From: Stratiolaelaps scimitus
Lineage: Eukaryota; Arthropoda; Arachnida; Mesostigmata; Laelapidae
Reading direction: 5' to 3'
NCBI GenBank assembly: GCA_019614645.1
Contig: JABWDB010000001.1
Span: forward strand, 29,567,501-29,631,500
DNA: 64,000 nt
The position numbers were made by a program, and so were the translations under genes. A model generated the notes under the pieces. That model made no database searches, was not told the origin of the DNA, and saw only the letters and a list, made by a program, of their open reading frames with translations. This document shows positions 4,638 to 62,099 of the stretch, piece after piece. Numbering within the stretch: the stretch's first letter is position 1; each line of letters starts with the position of its first letter.

Positions 4638-4859
4638 CTACTCCTTGGCGAGTTCCGCGGCCTTAGCCACAGCCTCAGCGACGTCGCTGTAGACAGGAAC
4701 GCGGCTGCGGGTAGCCTGATCGGACAGGTATGACCTGCCGCGATTGTAATCTTTGGCCTGCGTTGTCGACACCTTCTCGCCGTGGATCAGCGAGCCGACA
4801 GAGACGTCTTGGATGCAGAGGACCACTTTGAATTTCTCAAGCCCGATGTAGTAGCTTGC
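4638..4859 (-). CDS. Exon 10: C-terminal end of NDT-like domain 2 and stop, residues 609-681
   Basis: The acceptor is acatggcttcttccag|GCAAGC. The exon is in phase 0 and reads ASYYIGLEKFKVVLCIQDV, then GSLIHGEKVST and RGRSYLSDQATRSRVPVYSD. It ends in an alanine/lysine/glutamate helix at the TAG stop at 4640-4638. The strand KVVLCIQD corresponds to LVLAIED of domain 1. The NRGRSYLSD...VPVYSD ending is the closing strand and helix of the fold. On the minus strand, the nearest ATTAAA (3658-3653) and AATAAA (3256-3251) lie 1.0 and 1.4 kb past the stop. Either could be a polyadenylation signal, so a 3' UTR of that size is possible but unproven. Confidence 0.9.
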   Translation of the reverse strand, partial: ASYYIGLEKFKVVLCIQDVSVGSLIHGEKVSTTQAKDYNRGRSYLSDQATRSRVPVYSDVAEAVAKAAELAKE

Positions 4860-5064
4860 CTGGAAGAAGCCACATGGAAAGATCCACTAACAGTAAGACC
4901 GAGTCTTGACAGGTGCATTTCACAAATGCTAGCTAGAAAGCTAGATATATGGATGGATGCTAATTAAAAATCGAGTAATTGCCCTGTCGTCAGATCACGA
5001 GAGGAGCAGATGCTCTAATTGCGTATAACGAAACAATACGTCCAAAAGCACCAAGAGGACGTAC

Positions 5065-5206
5065 CATGATCATCTCTGGGGCTCCCCACGTGTCCGACGC
5101 AAACACGAACAGCAGAACTTTGCACGCCTCAATCTGCTGCATCTCCATGGGAAGAAAATGCTTACAGCTGTCATCGTTGCGCGTTCGGAACGATACATGC
5201 TCCTTC
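5065..5206 (-). CDS. Exon 9: core of NDT-like domain 2, residues 561-608
   Basis: The acceptor is gtcgtcttcag|GAAGGA and the donor ATCATG|GTACGT. It encodes KEHVSFRTRNDDSCKHFLPM and then EMQQIEACKVLLFVFASDT, ending GAPEMIM. The VLLFV strand and following helix line up directly with exon 6 (ARVLLFVHDKETRSLASMVE). The residue matching the presumed nucleophile Glu361 is here Met608, the last codon of the exon. The splice sites are strong, so the substitution is unlikely to be an artefact of exon choice. Domain 2 is probably non-catalytic, perhaps structural or regulatory. Confidence 0.88.
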
Positions 5207-5465
5207 CTGAAGACGACACGGCATCACAAAACATTTGAGTGTTAAGTAAGTTACTTTCATCCGTATGATATAGCAGCCGGTGCTTGCCATCGCTGTGAAA
5301 ATTCCCACCTGGTTGCTTGGATTGGGTTTAGCGCTGCGCTGATTTGTTTGTTCACGTTCATCTGTCTATTGCCGCTGATACTGGCTATAAATTTTGGGCT
5401 GCCAATTAATATTTTTTGCCACCGATTCGACCAGCGATTAGATGAACACATAGCGCAGCCACGCA

Positions 5466-5467
<2 letters not shown>

Positions 5468-5498
<31 letters not shown>
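5468..5498. repeat. (AT)n microsatellite in intron 8
   Basis: A perfect AT run of about 15 units sits inside the 405-bp intron between exons 8 and 9. Confidence 0.95.
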
Positions 5499-5500
<2 letters not shown>

Positions 5501-5611
5501 TGATACAGGCATCCATCTACAAACACATCTACTTTCACCTATGGTTCAGTGAGTTGGCATGTGATTTTCAGATAGTACAACTTCGAAAGGCAGGGGTCGT
5601 TCAACACTCAC

Positions 5612-5935
5612 TTGAAATGTGGCAGAGCTACAGTCATACGCCAGTCTTCTGCGCCGGTGGGGCCTGCAATGAACACCTTTTCGGTTTCGCGAGAAGGGGA
5701 AAAGTATCTTTCTGAGGGCCAAGAAATGCCAAGCACCTTGAACAAATTGGGCTTGACCATCATGCGATATTCGGCGGTGATCATGCAGTACTGGTCGAAT
5801 GTGATCTGGTCCTTGTCACTGATAAGGAGCTCCTTTGGAAGTTCGCGACCAGTCGAGACACGGAATGCCATGTGGCGCTCAGGAATTGACAGGTGGTCAT
5901 TCGTCGAGTGGTTATCGAATGCGCTGTGGATCTTG
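5612..5935 (-). CDS. Exon 8: second EF-like stretch and start of NDT-like domain 2, residues 453-560
   Basis: The acceptor is gtatctttcttacag|CAAGAT and the donor CATTTCAA|GTGAGT. It begins IKIHSAFDNHSTNDHLSIPE. In the middle, ISDKDQITFDQYCMITAEY looks like the last part of an EF loop (DxDxITFDQ) followed by its helix, echoing exon 3. Next comes KPNLFKVLGISWPSE and an exposed linker. The second NDT-like domain starts at residue 540 with VFIAGPTGAEDWRMTVALPH. Aligned with exon 5, hydrophobic strand, Gly turn, WR and LP are all conserved, which shows an internal duplication. This is the longest exon except exon 2. Confidence 0.9.
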
Positions 5936-6136
5936 CTGTAAGAAAGATACGTAGAGGGAATTAGTATTTTCACTCAGGTTCAATCGTTGATATCATTATT
6001 GGTATTACGGCTAAGTCCTAGTTCCTATTAGAATAACAATAATAATAGTAATGCTTCGATAGCAACATATGCAGATTGATCCATTCGCGCGAAGACAGAG
6101 CATATCTGGCCATCATATAGGTCGCTATATACTCAC

Positions 6137-6322
6137 ATAAACTTTTCCCCAAGGGTTTTATCGCAAACCGGCGCAGTTTCGTCAACGCTGGACTTGCTAT
6201 GGCCCTTCACAATATCGATGCATCCTTGTACAGCGGCCTCAATTTCGGCATGAACTCGGACACGGCAGGCTTCAGCAATGCACCGCATGTAGTTTCGGGC
6301 GCGTTGCATTTCCTGCATTTCC
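6137..6322 (-). CDS. Exon 7: helical segment after NDT-like domain 1, residues 391-452
   Basis: The acceptor is ctctcgtttacag|GGAAAT and the donor TTTAT|GTGAGT. It encodes a strongly helical, charged segment starting EMQEMQRARNYMRCIAEACR, then VHAEIEAAVQGCIDIVKGHS and a Ser/Asp/Glu-rich tail ending near LGEKF. In simple NDT-like proteins the last part of the fold is a helical segment of this sort, so it probably finishes domain 1 and begins the inter-domain linker. No separate motif is recognised. It is followed by a short 201-bp intron, so exons 7 and 8 are close neighbours. Confidence 0.86.
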
Positions 6323-8398
6323 CTGTAAACGAGAGAGAGAGAGAGAACAAACGCTACATTGCAATTTAATCTATACGATTATGGCACTAGTCTTAGAATG
6401 TCCTTGGTATAGAGTAGAGCGATTGAGAACTAGCGCGACCATTGTGTTGCTTCACAGGCTGAATAATTTAGATAGATAGATACATATAGTAAGTCCACAA
6501 ACATCTACAAGAGTGACTTCATAACGATTCACGATGTTATCGTTGTTCATGCTCACAACTCAACGGATCAAAGAAACGCAGGTGGGCAGACATCTTTCGA
6601 AAAAAAAACATTCACTACTCCAATCACAGATCATGTCACATGTCCCTCAGCCTTTGCGAGAAAAACGTCGTTGTAACAACTGCCTTCGACCCGGTAGGTA
6701 ACTACAGGAGGAGATCTGCCAAAACCTCCGAATAGTTAGTTAATCTGGCCAGCCGCCTCACGCTCGTGTCGCCACGGCCGCCGCAGTAGCTGCTGCTACT
6801 GTTGTTGTTGCTCCAGTCTTTCACCTATTCCCATCATCCATCATCGGTTTGATTTGCTTGATTTTCATCTTCTCGTGGTCATCGTATGGTGTCATCGACA
6901 CATTGTCGCTTGTGCCGACTCGACACTGGCTGCTCTGCCAACTTCCCCCTGAAGAGAGTGCTAGCGGCTGCAGTAGCCACGGCGACGGCAGCGTCAGCAC
7001 CGAGCGAACTCCACTGTCGAGGGCCGCTTTTGCGCCGCGTTATCGTATCGGGTGGCACAACACGACGGAGTCGTATTTCGGCTGCGGGTGGCTGTCGCAA
7101 GCAGTCGCTGACGCCACTGAGGCGGCCGGTCGTTCGACCGAAACGCGCGCGTCCCTCAGCGCCCCCAGAGATCCAGCCATTATCATGACGATGGTGATGA
7201 TGATAATGATCTCCAACAAGGCGGCGTCATCCCTTGAGAATCTTGTTCTCATCTCTTCCACGGAACGAGATCCCCGCGAGCGACGCGGACGAAGAGAGAG
7301 ATAGCAGAGGGGGATAGGGAGCCAGTGACTCCGTTTTTTTTTTTTTCGACAGACCCGGCCAGATCCAGCAGTTGGCAGGCGACACTCGATCTATGGGTGA
7401 GTGGAGTTACGACGGCGGCGGCTGCGACGGCAATCTCAACCAAATTAGCTCACACATCGACACCAACACTCACCCTGTCCCAGAAGTTAACCATCGAGTT
7501 GAAGCTGAAGAGCCAATGAAATACGAGAGAAATTGAAAGATAACGATGGTGATGACGGGATGGTGAAGGGATAAAAGGAAAACATAGAGTAGAGGGAGCC
7601 AAAGAAAAGGCGAGAGACAGAGAGGGAATATGGGTTTAAAAAAAGTATCGAATGAATGGTATCACGAAGAGACGCAAGGGGATCTGCTGCTGCCACCGCT
7701 GTTGCCGCTTCTACAGTTACCATGACGATGGTGGAGCTGGCCTAGGCGTAATGGGGAATGCTTTTGCTGGCGTAAGCCGAGTGTCGTTCGACGTCACTGC
7801 CACCCGCATCAGGTATCTCCATATAGAGAAGGAGGTCGCAGAGTCGGCGGCAACCTTCTATTCTGGCGCCAAGGGATCCCGGCGTTGAGCCGAGGAACAG
7901 AGCAAAATCAAGGTAGACCGGGTGTGCGCGTTTATGCCTGGTGCATGAGACGAACTCGACGGGCGGCTGCAGCTTACAGAAGCAGCCACGACGGCAAAAA
8001 TCTTATGGAAGAAGGCGACACGTTGATAGTATTGCCGGTGGACGCGTGAGAGTGTCACCAGAGGCCATCCCCCAAGAAACAGATTCGTATACGAAGTATA
8101 ACAATATTCGTTGCAGCACAATGAGTCTCGTTCGTATGCAATCGAGAGATGGCGTTTGCTACACAAGCTCAAAAGTATCGCGAATGTTTTGTAGACCGGC
8201 CTCCCTCCTACACCGCAGCTTGTTCATGACCTTCACAACAAGGTCCGTTTGCAAAGCCGCTACGAATCACATATCCCTATACATCAGATAACAGATCATT
8301 ACGTGTTCGTAAACAAAGATGTGTTATTGTCGAAAAAAAACAACAACAATAGAACCTAACAGATATGCATTTTTTCTATGCTTGCAATGTCTACGTAC
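6323..8398. other. Intron between exons 6 and 7, with a GC-rich island
   Basis: It holds a GA run next to the exon 7 acceptor and a GC-rich, CpG-bearing stretch at about 6730-7480 with CTG and CGG clusters. Open frames of up to 151 codons occur there on both strands, but they lack splice or motif support. The island may be regulatory. Confidence 0.5.
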
Positions 8399-8604
8399 CT
8401 GTCCGAAAGGGTCTCCCCCATAACTCCCTTGCCCTGGTCCTCGATGGCCAGCACGAGCTGTTTCTTGCGAGCGCTCAGCTCACCGGCCTCGACCATTGAC
8501 GCGAGGGAGCGTGTTTCTTTGTCGTGAACAAACAGGAGGACACGGGCATTCTCCTTCGCCTGCTGCTCAAGTTCGATCAGTTCGGGTCGCCAGTCAGATC
8601 GTTG
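8399..8604 (-). CDS. Exon 6: catalytic core of NDT-like domain 1, residues 323-390
   Basis: The acceptor is aaactctatcacag|CAACGA and the donor GACAG|GTACGT. It opens QRSDWRPELIELEQQ, with the tryptophan and glutamates typical after the NP turn. It then reads ARVLLFVHDKETRSLASMVE, followed by AG and a basic loop before LVLAIED. The glutamate of SMVEAG (residue 361) is the position I align with the nucleophilic Glu of nucleoside 2-deoxyribosyltransferases, one helix turn after the VLLFV strand. The order strand, acidic loop, M-x-E-A helix, then the VxLxI strand is complete. I therefore call domain 1 potentially catalytic, though the alignment is by eye. Confidence 0.88.
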
Positions 8605-9505
8605 CTGTGATAGAGTTTCGCCCGACAGGTAGACAAGGTATCGCCGCCCGGTGTCGCAACCCGATGGAAAACATGGAAAATTGAGCGCAAAATAACGAAA
8701 ACGCGAGAGATTATTCGGGTGTCGACTGTCGCTGTTGTCTCTCCAATGTCACTCGTTTGTGTGAGTGGCGTGGTACGCCTCACAGATTGGCATTGCGCGC
8801 CCCTGTGGGCATCACTATGGAGAGCGGTTTTTGATTTCTTGAGAGACAAGAACGTCTAAAAAAACAACCGATAAGCCACACGCAGACACACACACACAGG
8901 ACAGACAGCATATGCATCCATGACTTTGAATGTTCACAGATGCATCGATGGAGCAACAGCCTTCTGTGGTCGAATTGCCATGAATCAATTGTACGCTATC
9001 CCGCCGAGCGTCGTTAAGAATCTGTATTCGTCAATCTTTTGCATCATACCCAGACATATCGAACCATTTCGAATGATGTCGGCTGTGAAAAATATACGAC
9101 AAGCAAACAGATCCCTAGCAGCGTAGAGTCGTCAAATGGTTGCAGCGGGCGTAACCCGAGTGGAAACTGCCTCTTTGGGTGGCTCAGTATCTGCCCGAAA
9201 TCGTGTTATAAACGTCAATCCCGTGGTAATCCGATGTATTCCGTATGGATCTCCGCTCAATGCATACAGTAGAGTAGATGAACGTTTCGCAGTATCGGGT
9301 ACTAAGTCTGAACGAGGTCGTTACTGCGGAAATCGGTCCCGACCATCTTAATCAAGTTTATGACTGCAGCTCCACCGCTGCCCGCCCAGTCATTCGTAGG
9401 TATCTTGATCGAAATCTCGCGAGAACAGGCAGACCGAAAGCCTATGCATTGGACAGTATTCATATGAATAGGTTGACATAATCACATCAGATAGATCAGC
9501 AAGAA

Positions 9506-9511
<6 letters not shown>

Positions 9512-9544
<33 letters not shown>
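9512..9544. repeat. (AT)n microsatellite
   Basis: A perfect AT run of about 16 units. Confidence 0.95.
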
Positions 9545-9547
<3 letters not shown>

Positions 9548-9940
9548 GCAGTGAAAATAGCCATGCTCGAGTTTTGTAGACGATCCACTGCAGGCACCGG
9601 CGGTCATTCATGTACCCGTAGGTATATTTCCATTATCTAATAATGATAAGAATGGCATAATAATAATTATAATAATAATCATAGTAATTTTATCAACGAT
9701 CGTGATAACGCGACAGCGATCAGCGCGTGGCGGGAGGAGGAAGCCACCGTTCGTCTCCTATCTTCTCTTCTTGAGCCGCACTCAACGACTCAACACGAGG
9801 ATTTACTTTTCGTTAGACTCACCCTCACTCCTTACCCTTGCGCATTCGAACGACTTCAGCTTGTCTCAGTATTTTATTTTCCCCTGTAATCCCTATCCGG
9901 CGTGTGCATAATAGAGGCTTTACCAAGAAGTGACCCGAAG

Positions 9941-9993
9941 ATATATATATATATATCATTGTTTCACTATATATATATATATATATATATATA
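9941..9993. repeat. Split (AT)n microsatellite
   Basis: Two AT runs (9941-9957 and 9968-9993) are separated by CATTGTTTCAC. Confidence 0.95.
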
Positions 9994-11352
9994 CGATGCC
10001 AACACATGAGACTATGGCAGACCATCGCCTCATCCCTCACTCCCGAGCCTGTCATCGTTTTGCATGCGTGCGTCTCGACGAATAATCGTCACAAATCAAC
10101 GCTTACCACCGAAATCGATCATCGCCACGACAGGGTCGTACATAGGTAATTGTACTCGTATCCGTGCGACCGTAGGTATAATGATACGATTATCATTTAT
10201 TATTATTATTATTCTTCTCCCATTCGTTTCCTTCATCCTTGTCGACTTCGTCGACATCAGCTTCTGCTTCTGGCGTATCCGTGTATGCCTGTATATCAGC
10301 ATTAAGTGCGCATGGAAGCGGTCGCGCGCACACGGAAATAACAACGAGGGTAGCGCGGTCAGCTAAGACCACACTCGCACACACGGGCTAGCTTGTCCAT
10401 CCTCTTGCCCGACTAGCAGCTAAAGGCGCGACAGAATCAATTGCCTCCGCACGATTATCCTCCACGAATCGATGCTGCTGCTGTTGTTGATGCGGCGGCG
10501 ATTTCGGATTTGGCCGCTGCCAACGACAGAGACGAGTTAAGCGAACATCGCCGCAGCCGCCCGAGCCTCGTTGACACAATCATCGTATGAATGCATTAGA
10601 TACGCAATGAAACACAGGTCGGCTGATACAGGCAACTGCAACAGCGCAGCGCGTGAGCAGCGCCAGCAGCAGCAATGCATACGCGAACCGAAATACAGAC
10701 AAGACAACGGACGGAGATGAGAGTCGGGGCAGGCAAGTGACTTGAACGTGAGTGTAGTCCGTCGGCCGATGTTTGCCGAAGCTTTAACGATGCGACGTCA
10801 TCTCGCGCCACCAGATGACGGAGGACATTGACGGGACGTTCTAGCGGCACTAGATTGTTATTTCGTTATCCTGTTTTGCCCTCCTGTTATCTGCATTGAA
10901 CCATCATTTGGCAACACGTCAAGCAGTGCACGACGCTACGCCAACCGAAAATGGATGGCTCGCTTTCGAACCCGTTTATAACCACTCGTAAAATCGTGGT
11001 CAGAGTCTCGGACCGGCTGTCGACGCGCACCACCACCTACTACTGTACTACTAGAGCTCGACTCCGGATTGATCAGGCCGACTCTGGAATATAAGGTCGA
11101 CCAGAAGAATCATCTAGATCGACATCAATAGAGGTATGGGTGATGATGTGAGTTTTCGATTGATCATCCGCCGTCTCGCTACTGCAATGTGTTTATGAGG
11201 GGCAAAACGTCGATTAGAATCTCTTCTGTCATTATCTCGATCGAGACAAGTACGGCCACGTGTGTCCTCGATAATCATCAGTGTACGTAATGGTGATGTC
11301 TGCTACGTCGCCGGTAGTGTAGCAGTCGTGATTACGCAACATAAATGAAGCC

Positions 11353-11374
11353 ATATATATATATATATATATAT
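11353..11374. repeat. (AT)n microsatellite
   Basis: A perfect AT run of 11 units. Confidence 0.95.
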
Positions 11375-12808
11375 GAGGTCTTTTGACTATTGGCATGTTG
11401 ATATTTTCTCGCTCGCTCTCCCTCATCCGCAGACATCCACCCTTCCCTTTAGGCTTAGAAACCATCCTACTTCAATGATCGCAAAGCAGAAAGAGTGGTC
11501 CGCCAAAAGAAAAGCCACACCATCAGTGGCAAGCCGCAAAACCATCTCAACGCTGGTACAACAAACGCCTCGTACCCTTCCCTACGAACGCTCCCCATGA
11601 AAAGCTTGAGGCACGCTATGGCACCACTTGAAGGTGTCGATATCGCAGGACACGGCCAAACCAGAATAATAATTAATTCCCGGATGACAGTAACTGTCCA
11701 ACCACCAGCTCGACGCGCCACATAATCAAACATCCCGGCATACGCAAGTAGATATATGCTGTAGCGTTCCCTCTAGCGGTTGATCTGTGCTCTGACCTCC
11801 CACCGGCTTCGGCTTTCACACGGCGGCGCCTTTTCTTTGTACGTGATTTTTTGTTGTTGTTGTTGTCCTCATTAGCGTTCTTCCACAGTGATATCAACAA
11901 ATATACTATCACCATTATTGAGCCTATAGCGTATTTCACTGTGGCGTATGTCGCACGCGCCCGGCTCACTGTCGTCGACGATGACTAGGTATTATATTCA
12001 TAATGATAATGATGATAATAATCAGTTTGATTCCGACATACGGACAGGTTGGCCGACAGCACAACATGACGTTTGCTCAGCTGAAAATAAGGACTACCGA
12101 TCTGCTCCCAGATCCCAGGGGTCCACCAGCGGTCGAATCGGTTGTCCCCGCCAACGGCGTCACTGACAGATATATCGACTCACGAACCCAGGCTGGAAGG
12201 CACGCACAACGCTGGCAATCGCCACTAATGTGATACGAGCTCACAACCACAGGAATAATATGCGGGCGACGTTATACGCCACTGCTAGCGCCGCGACTGC
12301 TGGTAAACCAAACTCCAACGGTGGCATCCGATGGCATGAACGAACAGGTAGACAGGCCGACAGCCATAGTGGATAGCAGCCTTTAGCATCAGAAAGCGAT
12401 CAAACGCGGCCAGAATCTACCGGCCAGGTCGCGACGTGGCCAGCTGATCTGAGGCTACGCAGCAGATGAGGTCGTAAGTGAACTGGCGTCCGCTTTCCCA
12501 GCCAATTCAAAGTTGCTCACTTATTGACTATTTGTATTCTGGACAGAGGGACGCGCTGCAGAGGAAACAGTCATCGTCAATTGCTTCTGCTGCTGCTGCT
12601 GTCGTTCAGTTCTCAACTACAGACTTGCTGCTGCTGCTGCTACTTGCTTTGACGACTACTGTACTACGTTCAGTGCCAGGTGCCGCCGATGTGCGTGCGT
12701 TTGTGGGCAGATGGAACTCAATAGGGCTAATGCAATCATTCACAGGGGAGATACAACGGCGATAGGATATCAGCCGGACACGCGGCCGTAGAATATTATC
12801 TATTTTGT

Positions 12809-12814
12809 ATATAT

Positions 12815-12851
<37 letters not shown>
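12809..12851. repeat. (AT)n microsatellite with one interruption
   Basis: Two AT runs are joined through an extra AA. Confidence 0.95.
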
Positions 12852-13156
12852 GTGTCCACATTCATATATAGAGTATGATATTGAACGTTGACGTAAACAA
12901 CAATTAAATCACTGATAGGGTGAACACGACAGAATATATCACGCAGGTTGAGATGACGGGACGAATAACCAGAGAGAGATTGAACCAATATGTGGCTATT
13001 CTGCCGTTTACGTTAAGTGCTATTGTACATCGTCGAATACAATACTACATAGATGTAGTTACAATTTCGCGTAATATGCCAAACAATAGTTGTCTCAGCC
13101 GGCGTATCACTCAGCAATGATTATTATCCACAGACACTACCAATAGACACTACCAC

Positions 13157-13211
13157 TATATAGCGTAGTCGTCAATGACCACGTATTCGTCATTGACGAA
13201 TACGCTATATA
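13157..13211. repeat. Long hairpin (23-bp arms, 9-nt loop)
   Basis: Arms 13157-13179 and 13189-13211 pair at 22 of 23 positions around loop CACGTATTC. The right side also contains a second perfect palindrome, GTATTCGTCA-T-TGACGAATAC. It lies in the intron between exons 5 and 6, 196 bp past the end of exon 5. It could be a foldback remnant, a small-RNA precursor or a recent local inversion-duplication; the sequence alone does not decide. Confidence 0.85.
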
Positions 13212-13406
13212 TCTAAACAACGGTTAATTATTACCTAGAAAGCAGCAACAACAATATTTGTCTTACTGGAATCAATTGTGCCTGAATGAATGCCTGGCCT
13301 CTATGTGTTGTCAAATACAATCATTGACCAATCAACCAATAGTAAATTCACGAAGCGGACGGCTAGCGATTCATTCTAGCAATATGCATTTAGAGGAAAT
13401 TCGTAC

Positions 13407-13498
13407 CGGATTATAGTAGGTGACCTGGGCCTCTTTCAGGGCGGGGATGGCCTGATCGCGTCGCCACTGCGTTGGATTGCACGAGCCTCCAAGAAAGA
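13407..13498 (-). CDS. Exon 5: first strand and helix of NDT-like domain 1, residues 292-322
   Basis: The acceptor is attttcttttctgcag|TCTTTC and the donor AATCCG|GTACGA. It encodes FLGGSCNPTQWRRDQAIPAL and then KEAQVTYYNP. This is the first beta strand, the glycine-rich turn (GGSC) and the first helix of a nucleoside-deoxyribosyltransferase-like Rossmann-type fold. The F-L-G-G-S-C...W-R...IP-L...YYNP pattern is the most diagnostic part of the protein. In this enzyme family the strand-turn carries residues that hold the nucleoside base. The matching segment in domain 2 (exon 8) reads VFIAGPTG followed by DWR and LP. Confidence 0.88.
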
Positions 13499-16106: not shown

Positions 16107-16303
16107 CTTCGGTGCAAAAGGGCCCGATAATTTCGGCGTCGTCGTCGAGATCGACGAACGACGGGTCTCTGCGCGGACGCTTGTTCCAAAGGCTTTCGCT
16201 CGATGTATCCTTGCGAATGTTCGGAGACACGATGGGCTGCACGGTCGCACGAGTGTGCGCCGGCAGCGGGTGCACGACACTGTCATGGTGGTGGTTGTGG
16301 TAT
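16107..16303 (-). CDS. Exon 4: charged linker leading into NDT-like domain 1, residues 226-291
   Basis: The acceptor is cgggtttgacag|ATACCA and the donor ACCGAAG|GTAATT. The incoming AT of exon 3 plus the first A gives isoleucine, and the outgoing G plus TC of exon 5 gives the valine that starts domain 1, so both phases fit. The sequence begins YHNHHHDSVVHPLPAHTRAT and later contains NKRPRRDPSFVDLDDDAEI, a basic patch followed by an acidic run. No known fold is visible and it is probably a flexible linker; the basic patch might direct nuclear import. The same frame stays open 5' of the acceptor to tandem ATGs at 16347-16342, so this exon may also serve as the first exon of a shorter transcript. 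A 211-codon frame on the opposite strand is a shadow. Confidence 0.72.
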
Positions 16304-16347
16304 CTGTCAAACCCGGAAGATACCAACGGGCTGCCCACCTGCATCAT
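16304..16347 (-). CDS. Possible alternative start extending exon 4 upstream
   Basis: Immediately 5' of the exon 4 acceptor the reading frame stays open to two consecutive ATG codons (16347-16342), adding MMQVGSPLVSSGFDR in the same frame as exon 4. If a promoter lies in the GC-rich sequence just above (16.4-18.1 kb), this would give a 470-residue protein. That form would lack the polyQ linker and first EF-like region but keep both NDT-like domains. First ATG context is only moderate. This is an inference from frame continuity. Confidence 0.3.
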
Positions 16348-18575: not shown

Positions 18576-18718
18576 AGGTAAAGGTATATTGGTTTATTAA
18601 AGGAGCTGCAATTTTACAATGCTTAAGCTCTCTTATATGTCACACAGCGGGGCTCGAACCCGCTGCCTCTGGCTTCCGATAGCCAGAGACTTAGCCGCCC
18701 AAGCCACCGCGCTAACCA
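18576..18718 (-). mobile_element. tRNA-derived SINE, full-length copy 1
   Basis: Read on the minus strand, the element starts with a tRNA-like head, GTTAGCGCGGTGGCTTGGGC, containing an A-box-like block. An anticodon-like arm CTGGCTATCGGAAGCCAG follows, then a perfect T arm (GCGGG TTCGAGC CCCGC) carrying a B box. The body ends in TTTAATAAACCAATA and a pyrimidine-rich tail (ATACCTTTACC). The anticodon loop is the wrong length for a functional tRNA and a unique body follows, so this is a Pol III SINE and not a tRNA gene. The AATAAA in the tail could act as a polyadenylation signal on the host transcript's strand. Confidence 0.82.
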
Positions 18719-23068: not shown

Positions 23069-23208
23069 AAAGGTATATTTATTGGTTTATCGAAGAAGCT
23101 GAAATTTTACAATGCTTAAGCTCTCTAATCTGTCCCTCGGCAGGGCTCGAACCTGCGGCCTCTGGCTTCCGATAGCCAGAGACTTAGCCGTCCAAGCTAC
23201 CGCGCTGA
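23069..23208 (-). mobile_element. tRNA-derived SINE, full-length copy 4
   Basis: It has the same head, body and tail order as copy 1, with more substitutions (TTATCGAAGAAGCTGAAATT in place of TTATTAAAGGAGCTGCAATT on the plus strand). The T arm is GCAGG TTCGAGC CCTGC, so one base pair differs from copy 1 by a paired change (G-C to A-T). The anticodon-like arm is identical to copy 1. Confidence 0.82.
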
Positions 23209-36733: not shown

Positions 36734-39700
36734 TTATTTAGTAATATATCCAACCAGTCGTCTTCTACTAACTATAGTTCCCTTCTTCCATAATCGCATC
36801 ATATGAGGTCTTCCGTCATAGTGATACCACTGTGATTGTCACCACCACCACCACCAACACCCATCACCAAATCGAAATGTTTAATCTCCTCATTTTATCT
36901 TATCTCACCTTCGCCTATAAGCTCGTACGGCGGGTACAAACATGTGGTCCATTCGTCCGTACGCGTTATCTAAAAGCCGCACACATAGGCGGTGCATTGT
37001 ACCAGTGCAAGCCGTGCTCTGTAATGCATTTATGGTTGGTCGTGACAACTAAAAAAAAGCCAACCCCCGCAAATCGTAGTAAATACCGACAATCTCGCAT
37101 CAGGCTTCGAATTTTCCCCTCACGAAAGGATCAGTTGGCCTGCACGACCGCAAATACAATGAGCCTCCACGGCCTGGCCCGAGACCACTATAATTGTGTA
37201 GTGTTTGCGCTGGACACATAATCCGCACATCGTAGGGATTATGAGATAGACAACTCGTACGGTTGGTCCTCTTCCTTTAGCCACGATTGCGAGGTCGCTC
37301 ACAAATGCATTGTTAATCCACTCCGACGAGTGTGGAGTGCACAGAGAATCAATCAATCAACAATGGATGGACGTTTAGATGGACGCGTCTATGCCAGCCG
37401 TAAGTCTGGGATCGAGCGGACCGTCCGAGGTAAGTATACAGATTTATCTGTAGGAGAAAGACAATTCGTTGGGTAAGTACGAGACGAGCTGATCGCAGAG
37501 CATTACGTTAGTAGGGACAGCAGTTGATATCATAGTTAACGGGCAGACTAAATGGATCAAAGATATGGGCCGAATCAACTGTTGATGGATGAAGCTCCTC
37601 GGGCTCATTAAGCGAAGGCCTCAATTCATTAGGGTCTTGATCCTGAGCTGACGGGAACTTCCATGATCCCTTCCCGAGGACACTCACTGTACAGCTGTAA
37701 CCCATACACAGTGACACACTGCTGACCACACATCAAGAGAGCGCTGCCGAAGCGTGCAGCCAGCGTATCGTGTGATCATGACGTACACGCCAGGCACTTG
37801 AGAGTGGACATCGCTTGAAGGACAACTCGAACACGTGGAAGTAAATGCTGCGTGTTGATATCATTTTCGTGGAGACGCAACCCAAATACTCACCGATTCG
37901 AGCTAGTAATAATTAAACGGCCATCATTTTATAACCGTTAATAAATGTATTCGTACAGAGTCTGACAATCATTGCTCGTAGGTCTATCCACAGGGTGAAT
38001 CGGTCGAAGAAGTACAGTGGACGTTAAATGTTGTCCCGAGAGTCAGCCCGAAAACCTTAGGTCAATGCAACCTAGGGTGAATCGGTCATTGGCCACAGGG
38101 GGGTGGAATCCTGCGCCCCAGAAAGACGACCCAAACGATCTCCGTGCACTGATAGTTGCTTTTGCCATTATTCTCATGTGAGTTATACTCAGCTGTACGA
38201 ATACACTCAAAACCAGTACGTAACGTATGTGTCTTGTGGATTTATCTCCCGAAATAACGAATAAATTGTTAAACAATTGTCTTTAATCTCTCACGATTCC
38301 AGCTATGTGGTATCACAAAACAATCTTTGCTTTTTCTTTTTATAAATCTGGCTGGCCATGAATCGATCAATAGTCCACACCGATAAATCGATACTTATCA
38401 GCGAGCGTTTGCGCAAAACACCGCCGTTATTCAATCCTCATTAATCGACTGCACCGTGAAAGGAGCGGTGGGCCCCTCGTCTAGAGCGCGTTGGCAACTA
38501 CACGGCAAGCAATATACGAATCCTGCTCCCATCACTTGAATAGCCTGCAGCAATGCTCTTCGACTTGGGTGGTGCTTGCGGCGGCGGCGGCGGCGGCGAC
38601 CACCGTTGCAGACTTTGCGCGTTGCCACTTTCGAATGCGTCGAGAGATGCAGACCACGGTGTCACACATAGACGCATCGACCAACCTTGCCAACTCGTGT
38701 CTCTCACCCCTGTCCTGCTCTCTCTCTGTAAATAGTTCTGTTTATATCCTGACCATTCTATTGATAGTACGTCCATTGGACTTGCGTCTTTCCTCTCCGT
38801 GCACGGGGTGCTATTCGGTCGGCCCTTGGTGACTTCTCAAAGCATGCTAAGAAGTTGTTGTTCTATCACTGTGTATAGCTGGACGGCCCTTCTGTCATGT
38901 CACTATCTGCCAACGACGTAGCTCTGAACAGCCCACAAGGTGTAATCATAACAGCAAGATCACCTGTCCTGCCAGCGCAGCTATGCATCTAGAGCGAAGC
39001 TTCGGCAGGCCCGGCCGTGCAATATTGCTTCACAACAGACAACACCTGCCGAATCAAACCGAACGATCATGACCCGTCGCCGTCGAACAGCGTCACCATG
39101 TGCGGCAACAGAGTAATTCCACAATACACTACAGTATTACTCCTCATCTTTCTCGATCGCTCGCTCTTTCTCGTTTTGCTCTGCGAATGTCTGCAGACGT
39201 CTGGTCTACATAGAGGCAGATGCCAAGAATCTTACCGTCATAATAGGAATGTTGAGAAGACGACCGGCATGCTTTACGAAGCGAAGGTGAACCGCACGAG
39301 ATTTTCCGACAGGGATTGCAGCGTGCTCTGCAATTGATACACGCACAAACGGATGCAGAATGAGTGTCATGGTGAAGATGGCGTTTGCAGCCCTGCTTGA
39401 TCTAGCCGGCTCGCTACAACTGTCTCACTACCTATTCAGGCATTGCATTTCATTCGTTCGAGAATATGCCGAGAATTAGAGCGACGTCTTGCATACGAAC
39501 TAATGCTACCCGTTCGTACTCATTGTTTAAGAGAAATCTATCGCTGAAGAAGGTCATAGCCAAGTTAGGGCTGTACGGAATGGTTGAACCGTGAATGCAT
39601 CGGCGAGATGACAGAGTACAAGAAGGAATAACGCTTGCTAATTTCTTGGGAAGATGTCTCTCTGCCTTGAGAGGTCTTCTTCACTAGAGTGATATTTTAC

Positions 39701-40280: not shown

Positions 40281-40505
40281 ATTTTTTCCGAGTACTTCAT
40301 CTCCGCAACGTAGAACGAGTAGACGCCTTGGCTAAGGTAGGTGTCGGTGTGTCGACGTGTCTCGCGGCTAAGTTCGAGCATTTCGTGTATCTGCGCCTGT
40401 GACGGGATCACCTCCATTCCCCGGAAAAGCAGATCAATAATTTGACAGTCACTTGTGGTGATCGAAGGCGAGCCGACGTTTTTTTTCCAGACCTCAAGCG
40501 TTCGC
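40281..40505 (-). CDS. Exon 3: calmodulin-like EF-hand-fold region, residues 151-225
   Basis: The acceptor is gtttgggttacag|GCGAAC and the donor AAAAAT|GTGAGT. The reading opens RTLEVWKKNVGSP. It then has the segment IIDLLFRGMEVIPSQAQIHE, which has the spacing of the helix-linker-helix between paired EF hands in calmodulin-like proteins (compare the general LRxxGxxPTxxEL pattern). The stretch DTYLSQGVYSFYVAEMK resembles the end of a degenerate EF loop followed by the exiting helix. No canonical 12-residue calcium loop with the full set of acidic ligands is visible, so this is probably a structural rather than a calcium-binding EF fold. A similar, shorter segment recurs in exon 8, just before the second NDT-like domain. 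Confidence 0.85.
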
Positions 40506-56077: not shown

Positions 56078-56428
56078 CTTGTGAAATTTCCGAGAGGCCG
56101 AATTTCTCCCTCCTGTACGACCACGCTCTGCTTTTCGGCTCGGCCAGAGCTGCAACCGGCTCCACCTTCACCGCCGCTGTTGAGGTTGCTATTCTTCGTG
56201 CTGATAACGCCACTGCTGGTTGTTGAATTTGCCGATGGGACAGCGGAACGTGCACCATCAGCAACAGCAGAAAGTCGTGTATCCGAGGCTGTTTGCTGAA
56301 GCTGCTGCTGCTGCTGTGGCGGCGACACCGTCGAGACGGCGCTACGGACGATGTTCTTGGTGTGTTTCTTTGGTCTTCGGGGAGGTGTAACCGGCTTCCT
56401 CCCTGGTCCTCCCGCGTCGGTGGGACCT
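56078..56428 (-). CDS. Exon 2: basic, polyQ and Ser/Thr-rich N-terminal linker, residues 34-150
   Basis: The acceptor is caaatttcag|AGGTCC and the donor CACAAG|GTTAGT, phase 2 at both ends. The reading begins GPTDAGGPGRKPVTPPRRPKK, a proline/arginine/lysine-rich stretch. A glutamine run (PPQQQQQLQQ) and a Ser/Thr/Gly-rich segment follow, ending GEIRPLGNFTR, where the arginine is split across the intron and continues directly into exon 3. Such sequence is normally disordered. The basic patch could be a nuclear localisation signal, but that is inference. A second frame over the same bases is open for 125 codons (56450-56073); it lacks matching phases and is treated as a shadow. The join to exon 3 is strengthened because the split codon AG|G yields a sensible R-R junction. 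Confidence 0.75.
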
Positions 56429-58923: not shown

Positions 58924-60074
58924 TAATTACAAAACAAGATAGATAATACACGAACTCGCGCGCGCATACACACAGGCATCCAGATCGATGTCGCGCTCGA
59001 AAACACGCAGCTTTCACACACAAATTTGCATAATTTTACAGCATCAACTGCGTACACCGCAGCAGTTCAATGTTGAGCTGACGGCGGCCACAGCCCAAGC
59101 AGTTGTCATTGTTACGACAGCAACAGCAACAACAACAACAAACTGTAAATCAATAATAGCACCGTCATTTCGGTAACATTATGGTGTTGATGTTCATTTG
59201 GACTCCGGGTACTGTGATTCGCGCCCTGTCATACCGGAAGGGCGAAGCGGCGTCGGCGGCACACTCGCTTGCATCGTCACTATGAGCGGGTCCCGCTGTC
59301 TGGACGGATTAGTGGAACCTCCTAAATGACGTCAGCGTTATAGCAGCGGATCAGCATTTGGTTTGCCACGTTAAGCAGTCGGCATCGGTGACGTGTTGTT
59401 TTCACGATGATATCTCCACACGACCCAAGATGAGACGTGCGGTGGAATGAGCGGCGGAAAATCTCACAGCGGCTGCCTTTCTGGAATAATTTCTCGGAGG
59501 GTGATTTAATAGCCGGCCTCGTCGACATGCGACAATTACGAACTGCTTGCGTAACATGGTAAGCTGCGACGATTGGTAGTCGCCCTTTCGACTCGATGTT
59601 TGACTTCGCGTTAACGAAAACTAACTGATACCGTATTTGACTGACAAACGCGCGATTCGATCCGGTACGCAGTGAGTAGGTCTGTTGAATGGGGGGCCCG
59701 TGGCAGAGCTTCGAGTGCGGGGCCTCTCGAGTTCATCAACGTTTGACAACTATTCATATTTGACCACGATTGACTACGATACCACTGTTCCGGTCCGATT
59801 CATCTTCGAATCATCGTAGAAACATGAAGGAAAGCAATTTTTTTTCTTCTACCTTCATTGATCAATGTGGAGAAAGTGAGAGGCGCACCCGAAATTGCAC
59901 TTGAGTGCGCCTAAGTGCCATATCGTATTGCAAGCGTATTACTCGAATACGTGAATTGAGGCAGATTTCGCCCCTTGGGGATTTCGGCAAAGGGAGTGCC
60001 ACAAGGCCTTCGCCAACTAGAGGATGATTTGAATAAGGACATAACAACATGGTTGAGTCTGTTTTTATGCGGCA

Positions 60075-60811: not shown

Positions 60812-62099
60812 GGTTGACCCAAAAATAATGACACACATATAAATTTCAATATCGGCAAAACTAACTAGGTTAAAATAAAGAGTTTTTAGTATGAGCTAGA
60901 AGTATGCACTTATTTTATTTGTACATTGGTCCCAGAGTTCTGGCAGCCTTCTGACGGCTACGTATGCACCATTTCTATTACCATTTATAACTTGGTTATT
61001 TAAGGCCTCTCGGAGTAAATAGATGTTTGCATACCTTGTGCCACCTATAGCCCTCTTTAATCAACGGAAGCAACCATAGTCTCACGGGCTTAAATCGGGA
61101 GAATAAGATAGGGTGATGCCATCGCTCAATCTTGTTGACCTTAAGCTAGAACGTAATTCCATTTCTACGATGTGCCCTAGCATTGTCATCGAGCAACCAC
61201 ACTCGGTGCTTCCACTTGCTATGCCAATTATTCATGAGTCCCTTCAAGAACTCGAGATATCGAGCCGAGTCCATTATTCTTTTGAGCCCAAAATCTCGTA
61301 GTGGCAAATTCCGTTGAAATCCATGGCAAGTGCTACCATTACTTTAGGCCCGAACCTATTTGGTACGGCTACCGCCATTGCCTGTTCACTTGGTCGTAGC
61401 CACTGCTTCACTTGATCTTTTTCCGCTCCTCTATCCACAGGCTAACCCATGTCTCGTCCACGGCAACGGTATGCTCTAGACGACTCGTTTGCTGCCTATA
61501 TATCTTCAAATTATCTCGCCAACACTCCGCACACATTTTTAGTTGGACAGGACCGAGTTCACGAGGGGCCCATTTTGCACCTTCTTTCTGCATCCTCAGA
61601 TTATTTTTAATAATTCGACGACATATTTTAAAAGGCACGCCAATCTTAGCCGACAAAGTCATCAATGACCAAGCCCAAGTCTGCTCAAAAGCTTTTGCGA
61701 TTATCTCGATCCGTTCATTTAATTGAGATTGGGGAAGGGGTGGGCGCCCTCGATGTTTATTAATGTCCCAGCAGCCTTACCTAAACTGGGCACACCAACG
61801 GCACACCTGTCGTCGATTCAGGGCATTATGGCCGTGCACACTAACCAACCTTCGATATATTTCAGCTAGACATTTCTTCTTTTGAAACGTAAACCTGACA
61901 CTTTTCTTGTGACAATACAAGTCTGCGGGACCTGTTCCGGCGGTTGCCATTTCGAACGCCCAACGAAAGCCGAATGCTAGCTGCTTTCGCGCCGCCTGCT
62001 TGCTAATTGTTGTGTCTACTACCCGCCAAATTTGAATTCAAACCGGCCAGGCCTAAGAATTCGGCACAAGACGATAGTCTCATTATTTTTGGGTCAAGC
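60812..62099 (-). mobile_element. Mariner-type DNA transposon, 1288 bp
   Basis: The left end GGTTGACCCAAAAATAATGA and the right end (reverse complement GCTTGACCCAAAAATAATGA) form 20-bp terminal inverted repeats with one mismatch. Both sides are flanked by TA (60810-60811 and 62100-62101), the usual target duplication. Length and a minus-strand transposase relic inside fit the Tc1/mariner superfamily. It lies about 2.4 kb upstream of exon 1. The ends are well preserved but the coding part is broken, so it cannot move by its own transposase. Confidence 0.93.
61041..61950 (-). pseudogene. Broken mariner transposase (DDE/D type)
   Basis: The frame opens at the ATG 61950-61948 (MATAGTGPADLYCHKKSVRF), with a helix-turn-helix-like N-terminus. 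An in-frame TAA interrupts it at 61779-61777, after which the frame continues. The first catalytic aspartate lies in VDETWVSLW (61458-61447 for DETW). A stop follows at 61410-61408, with the reading shifted by one base near 61425. The second aspartate is in LDDNARAHR (61193-61167). A degraded YSPDLSP block at about 61107-61087, in another frame, holds the third. At least one stop and two or three frameshifts make it inactive. The spacing of the last two acidic residues fits the D34D arrangement of mariner proteins, allowing for small deletions. Confidence 0.88.

Follow-up and report, generated by a model that had tools for sequence, protein, structure and literature searches.

The 64,000-nucleotide stretch of the Stratiolaelaps scimitus genome analysed here (the window; assembly GCA_019614645.1, contig JABWDB010000001.1, positions 29,567,501 to 29,631,500) contains a minus-strand gene that, judged from its sequence, is almost certainly the orthologue of Raw/OLRN-1. 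The encoded protein is a duplicated unit, each copy consisting of an EF-hand-like pair and a domain resembling nucleoside 2-deoxyribosyltransferases (NDTs). Family-wide, the first NDT-like domain (NDT1) keeps the front half of the ancestral site (GGS, WR, K, D, TR and Glu), and the second (NDT2) keeps the rear half (DxNRxRxY). Our overall explanation is a Raw/OLRN-1 orthologue with a shared nucleotide-type site, which we regard as evenly balanced between right and wrong. The family and its NDT-like label are already known; the split-site reading of the two domains is new.

A duplicated unit in a Raw/OLRN-1 protein

The gene has nine placed exons, running from 56428 to 4638, that form one open frame of 612 residues before a TAG stop. 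Exons 5–10 show AG/GT borders and compatible phases throughout and close in a single frame at the TAG. Exons 2–4 were placed by tblastn with the Varroa jacobsoni orthologue P0001 as guide and join in frame. The evidence for the proposed joins is the splice sites, the reading frame and homology. No initiator exon was found; a P0001-based match near 59650 has neither an ATG nor a donor and is therefore not claimed as the first coding exon.

Exon 2, 56078..56428, minus strand: low-complexity N-terminal segment, found by tblastn with P0001; AG/GT borders, in frame
Exon 3, 40281..40505, minus strand: first EF-hand-like pair, degenerate; 82% identity to P0001
Exon 4, 39236..39327, minus strand: linker, joined directly and in phase to exon 5, as in P0001 of Varroa jacobsoni
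Exon 5, 13407..13498, minus strand: start of NDT1, VFLGGSCNPTQWR...YYNP (the 'Raw repeat' 1 stretch)
Exon 6, 8399..8604, minus strand: core of NDT1, LLFVHDKETRSLASMVEAG; holds the catalytic-type Glu (P0001 E292) and E266
Exon 7, 6137..6322, minus strand: C-terminal part of NDT1, with the rear motif EMQRARNYM, identical in P0001
Exon 8, 5612..5935, minus strand: second EF-hand-like pair (degenerate in S. scimitus) and start of NDT2, VFIAGPTG...DWR
Exon 9, 5065..5206, minus strand: core of NDT2, with Met in the Glu slot (PEMIM)
Exon 10, 4638..4859, minus strand: end of NDT2, with the rear motif KDYNRGRSYL, then the stop codon
Exon-like stretch, 16107..16347, minus strand: open from an ATG, ending ...IGPFCTE-gt; its donor joins exon 5 in phase

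The joined protein matches the Pfam family PF15891 (Nuc_deoxyri_tr2) in two stretches with 99.2 bits, above the cut-off of 30 bits. Exon 6 alone scores 33.7 bits and is the single PF15891 match in the source genome (426 Mb, 145 contigs). NDT1 occupies approximately residues 221–361 and NDT2 residues 469–611. A preliminary description of this DNA had recognised both NDT-like regions between 4638 and 13498, as the profile match and the model below confirm, although its residue numbers (292–400 and 540–675) do not fit the 612-residue protein.

Profile comparisons between the two halves uphold its proposal of a duplicated two-part unit. NDT1 against NDT2 gives a probability of 100% (E 3.7e-54), EF1 against EF2 gives 92.7% (E 4.3e-7), and the match of the whole unit 1 to unit 2 spans 218 columns. 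Both control comparisons of an NDT with an EF profile fail (0.53% and 0.18%). The matches between the halves, together with the failed controls, therefore identify a duplicated unit.

The structure prediction suggested as a check was run on P0001. Alignments A1 and A2 contain 31 and 108 of the listed proteins, and the AlphaFold2 model was made with 108 alignment rows. It has a mean predicted local distance difference test score (pLDDT) of 81 and a predicted template modelling score of 0.78; pLDDT is at least 90 at 397 of the 612 residues and mostly above 90 in both NDT-like domains. The model consists of a helical EF-like region (approximately 114–195), NDT1 (223–361), a second EF-like region (379–443) and NDT2 (471–611). 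Both regions very probably have an NDT-type fold. The P0001 stretch corresponding to exon 2 has a pLDDT below 50, and the exon 2 segment is probably disordered.

An EF-like stretch precedes each NDT-like domain, as had been described, and the family profiles reach calmodulin-type proteins. For the first region, a family profile including the S. scimitus sequence finds calmodulins (best E 2.5e-4, best single stretch E 0.073); a family profile of the second region gives a strong match, to the EF-hands of calcineurin B (E 6e-9), and the match of the first is weak. Calcium binding is unsupported in S. scimitus. The Pfam EF-hand family matches neither P0001 at E 0.1 nor the window protein at E 1, whereas 27 of 120 listed relatives do match it. 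By eye, the S. scimitus loops are degenerate, carry no calcium ligands and lack the canonical 12-residue form, and these EF-hands look too degenerate for calcium binding. In Oppia (P0021), EF-hand_6 passes its cut-off (25.8 versus 25) and EF-hand_7 does not (27.8 versus 30).

Relatives among the best 120 of 312 matches include Varroa (90% identity), ticks, insects, crustaceans, molluscs, an annelid, echinoderms, amphioxus and sponges. The closest named relative among the matches listed is the mesostigmatid mite V. jacobsoni, and the source names include 'raw' and 'NDT-like domain-containing protein raw' (NCBI). A second search, with a midge protein as bait, returned Drosophila and other dipteran proteins among its best 120 of 361, many of them printed 'raw'. 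The similarity to dipteran Raw extends over both NDT-like domains and includes two Raw repeats (VFLGGSC...WR...NP). The aligned Drosophila row (P0142, D. mauritiana) is printed as 'uncharacterized protein LOC117137678', and other listed Drosophila matches as 'raw'; none of the best 120 bears the name of D. melanogaster Raw. C. elegans OLRN-1 was not among the best 120 matches of either search, and for its relation to Raw we follow PMC2213652. The orthologue assignment follows from the Raw names borne by relatives from sponges to insects and from the matches to dipteran Raw. The protein had been called unusual for an animal; a lineage-specific oddity was rejected, since the family spans sponges to insects and is conserved, with an NDT-like name already in use at NCBI.

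Raw and OLRN-1 share with the S. scimitus protein the double-repeat layout and the similarity over both NDT-like domains. A Drosophila relative differs by long inserts, and OLRN-1 carries a hydrophobic hairpin (PMC2213652). Both proteins are genetic restraints on JNK/p38 and TIR-1/SARM1 signalling (PMC10719852, PMC2213652): Raw counteracts JNK output and dSarm-triggered synaptic growth (PMC10719852), and OLRN-1 opposes a calcium/TIR-1/MAP-kinase pathway in AWC neurons (PMC2213652). The restraint acts in morphogenesis, neuron identity and synaptic growth. How Raw exerts it 'remains a challenging question' (2023, PMC10719852).

Opposite decay of the two NDT-like copies

Residue retention was compared at 35 paired positions, defined as those conserved in at least 90% of the single-domain relatives described below. 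The 239 relatives (P0001–P0239) are heavy in Diptera. Taxon counts refer to 48 hand-picked proteins among them: 30 named arthropods, 17 named non-arthropods and P0095, an EukProt entry grouped with the non-arthropods (18 rows); the remaining named rows, mostly flies, are excluded.

Glu, Lys, Asp and Trp258 are each present in NDT1 of all 30 named arthropods and in NDT2 of none. Conversely, the rear-motif Asp, Asn, Arg, Arg and Tyr are each present in all 30 NDT2 copies, compared with 24, 2, 6, 5 and 7 copies of NDT1. WR, GG and TR are mostly retained in both. Compared with circular shifts of the positions, this contrast ranks first of 35 in arthropods and in the top 2 of 35 for the 18 non-arthropod rows. 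A permutation p of 0.00085 assumes independent positions and serves only as a description.

The catalytic-type Glu of NDT1 is found in 238 of the 239 relatives, the exception being a fragment. In NDT2 it is found in 54, including 17 of 17 named non-arthropods and P0095. The M-x-E/M landmark of the preliminary description stands as regards the Glu of NDT1, but the halves are not equivalent, the second-copy Glu being absent from 30 of 30 named arthropods. Over the 239 relatives the NDT2 slot is occupied by E (54), L (124), M (29), Q (15), V (14), T (2) and I (1). Gln thus takes the place of Glu in 15 relatives.

A candidate shared site and its alternatives

NDT enzymes and DNPH1 build their active sites across a dimer (PMC10913048, PMC10483697). 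Catalysis by DNPH1 depends on the dimer, and the 5'-phosphate is contacted by a serine from the neighbouring subunit (PMC10483697). Because NDT enzymes form sites in this manner, we propose one shared site per chain. NDT1 and NDT2 would pack like two subunits of an NDT enzyme, and the NDT1 Glu and the Arg-rich motif of NDT2 would form a single composite site. A fused pair needs one complete site only, and therefore each copy may lose the half that it does not contribute. The conserved arginines would select a phosphorylated ligand, a nucleotide or an NAD-derived molecule, and its binding or N-glycosidic cleavage would set the restraint of Raw on AP-1/JNK/p38 output. By analogy with the dimeric enzymes, we place a single composite site per chain slightly short of an even chance. 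For a nucleotide-type ligand the balance is level, and catalytic turnover is predicted as rather unlikely.

Published deletions of OLRN-1 fit a shared site. Loss of Raw repeat 1 or of the region after repeat 2 nearly abolishes activity, while removal of repeat 2 leaves it not greatly reduced (PMC2213652). Mapped by the residue numbers of PMC2213652 and the Raw motif, repeat 1 corresponds to the front of NDT1, and the post-repeat-2 region should contain DYNRGR.

The comparison with known enzymes is summarised by what the Raw family shares with NDTs, MilB and DNPH1/Rcl: the fold, a catalytic-type Glu and an acidic residue 26 positions before it. It differs by a Phe in place of the site Tyr, an extra hairpin, the DxNRxRxY helix and the tandem fusion. 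E292 follows the predicted strand 275–280 of the P0001 model, in the place of a catalytic Glu after strand 4. It pairs with the classical NDT Glu in an alignment of 4.7% probability, and the matches that align the classical Glu with that of solved NDTs are in turn weak (best E 0.045). With a single-domain model, VIA-align ranks NDT and MilB above TIR domains. The Pfam family of the NDT enzymes, PF05014 (cut-off 28.8 bits), remains below its cut-off: it gives 14.7 bits on a joined sequence with a few extra residues and 13.3 bits on exon 6 by itself, and it does not match the corrected protein at E 1. In PDB sequence searches with the single-domain profiles A4 and A5 and with protein P0309, no NDT appeared among the matches listed, and a search with the window protein returned only His-rich tags. 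A match of P0309 to a bacterial shell protein (E 2e-4, best stretch 0.17) was taken as chance. Foldseek with the full Raw model gives no match at E of 0.001 or below, its first row being an oxalate oxidoreductase.

A number of observations speak against a shared nucleotide-type site. The pairing with classical NDTs is weak for NDT1 (4.7%), NDT2 (0.70%) and the single-domain proteins (0.23%, with a different pairing). The strand-1 Tyr of NDT/DNPH1, which lies near the Glu, is a Phe in 119 of 120 single-domain rows and 119 of 120 NDT1 rows, with a gap in the rest, and a Tyr-to-Phe change cost rat DNPH1 280-fold (PMC10483697). In VIA-align, a Hydra TIR domain (10.2) and LarB (9.8) outscore Rcl (9.7), with PurE at 9.5, and Foldseek ranks plant TIR domains first. 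The decay is also not a clean division: L277 and I280 of the front half are better kept in NDT2, NDT1 but not NDT2 retains the rear-half L327 (27 of 30 arthropods), and non-arthropods retain the Glu in NDT2 as well. In S. scimitus itself, both Arg and the Tyr (RARNY) survive in the NDT1 rear motif EMQRARNYM; opposite decay is therefore a trend of the family, incomplete in this species. On the genetic side, OLRN-1 lacking Raw repeat 1 still gave significant rescue, and deletion of the hydrophobic hairpin was well tolerated (PMC2213652). Genetic results in flies imply that Raw does not act upstream of dSarm, and no colocalisation of the two was seen (PMC10719852). No activity or ligand of Raw/OLRN-1 was found in the literature searched.

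The strongest alternative is a pseudo-enzyme scaffold, in which inactive TIR/NDT-like folds bind proteins such as MAP-kinase/AP-1 regulators and conservation reflects folding and interfaces. TIR NADases (SARM1/TIR-1) may have a similar fold and lie in the genetic pathway common to OLRN-1 and Raw. No TIR family in Pfam matches P0001 (E 0.1) or the window protein (E 1). The polar set of Glu, Lys, Asp and Thr-Arg is nearly invariant from the bacterial single-domain proteins to animal NDT1, which folding alone does not demand. We consider a scaffold a real but lesser possibility.

Two independent ligand-binding sites, one per domain and differing in specificity, would agree with the Glu in NDT2 of all 17 named non-arthropods and P0095 and with the separate clan formed by NDT2 in the tree (100/98); the arthropod NDT2 would then be a mere binding module. 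However, the front-half Asp of NDT2 is lost in 18 of 18 non-arthropod rows, so that its site is incomplete even there, and this arrangement appears improbable. An ordinary bacterial-type salvage enzyme retained in animals, as the name of PF15891 and the PF05014 matches to 6 of 82 single-domain relatives might suggest, is very improbable, since Raw and OLRN-1 mutants show signalling and morphogenesis phenotypes and an EF-like module would be unexpected in a salvage enzyme. Of the roles floated in the preliminary description, we judge nucleotide handling the likeliest and salvage the least likely. If nucleotide handling is correct, the SARM1 pathway would have a regulator that itself acts on nucleotides as an enzyme or senses them. 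The conserved site residues, the two-domain split and the putative ancestral single-domain version make the shared site a concrete hypothesis, testable by a single point mutation.

Single-domain relatives and other features of the window

We found 154 single-domain proteins with the PF15891 domain, bacterial and, in a few cases, from protists; two of the best 120 come from EukProt. The bacterial proteins have approximately 150 residues and share the VFLGGSCNPTxWR start. In a 141-column profile alignment they are 41% identical to NDT1 and 31% to NDT2. They combine the full set of site residues in one domain, and no EF-like part was seen in them. All of the best 120 carry Trp, Arg, Lys, Thr, Glu and the final Arg of the rear motif. 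Alignment A5 contains 82 of these 120, and it is among these that PF05014 finds its six matches (best E 2.5e-5, with matches counted to E 1).

A tree of 92 rows was built from both domains of 25 of the 239 proteins, 40 of the 120 single-domain proteins and two bacterial loci; it is unrooted and has few columns for its number of rows. NDT2 forms one clan. NDT1 lies on the side of the single-domain proteins, split into two groups as a result of the long branch of the mite rows. The sequences suggest that the bacterial single-domain form is the ancestral version.

In four of five bacterial loci (L003–L006) the single-domain gene adjoins a gene with an LSDAT_prok domain (prokaryotic SLOG, TRPM type), which scores 32–38 bits against a cut-off of 25.4. 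These genes encode approximately 750–1000 residues, with no other Pfam family at cut-off.

LSDAT_prok genes: L003, 3469-5721; L004, 6673-9681; L005, 6576-9488; L006, 4974-7868 (minus strand)

Since L003 and L004 are near copies (87%), the four neighbourhoods amount to about three independent cases. In L002, no neighbour of this type was seen in the list of open reading frames, which was not scanned with Pfam. L006 has one in-frame TAG inside the NDT-like frame. Thin as it is, the neighbourhood hints at nucleotide signalling. Thoeris has a TIR-SLOG pair layout. One far-reaching version of the enzyme reading would have an NDT1–NDT2 pseudodimer in Raw/OLRN-1 cleave or sense a phosphorylated NAD-derived signal from TIR-1/SARM1-type NADases, ending or gating it before JNK/p38, with descent from a bacterial nucleotide-signal pair of NDT-like enzyme and SLOG/TRPM-type sensor laid out like that of Thoeris. 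We hold this to be a long shot.

PADLOC gave no match for 6 proteins, and NCBIfam gave two matches for 6 proteins, both far below cut-offs. One viral scan found no relative; a second found two loci, L007 and L008, both of which were aligned, and the open reading frames of L007 were read by eye. Among 379 genomes of the phylum of G003, the genome of L004, only G003 itself was matched. In the literature searched, no paper on 'Nuc_deoxyri_tr2' was found, none of the best-matching papers joins Olrn-1 with deoxyribosyltransferase, and none pairs SLOG/TRPM with nucleoside deoxyribosyltransferase by title; the split-site idea is not claimed to be absent from print.

L003 is a 5744-base contig of a Lentisphaerae metagenome-assembled genome. 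Because its genes and their order are nearly those of L004 (Candidatus Uhrbacteria), the contig may have been binned with the wrong genome.

Within the window, the exon-like stretch at 16107-16347 ends in a sequence resembling the segment that precedes VFLGG in Galendromus P0003. The acceptor used puts it out of frame with exon 4 (frame worked out by eye), and it may be an alternative exon, possibly an alternative first exon of raw. A 122-residue open frame on the minus strand (61408-61776) resembles a transposase fragment by eye and has no Pfam match at E 0.01. ARAGORN called no tRNA in the window, and an Rfam scan of it found nothing at its threshold. Two minus-strand repeat copies (18630-18661 and 23123-23154) contain a tRNA-like GGTTCGAGCCC box and, after it, a tail common to both, and are perhaps a short interspersed nuclear element. 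The repeat pattern was recovered in 0 of 100 shuffled controls, which excludes chance matches only, as the pattern was built from both copies.

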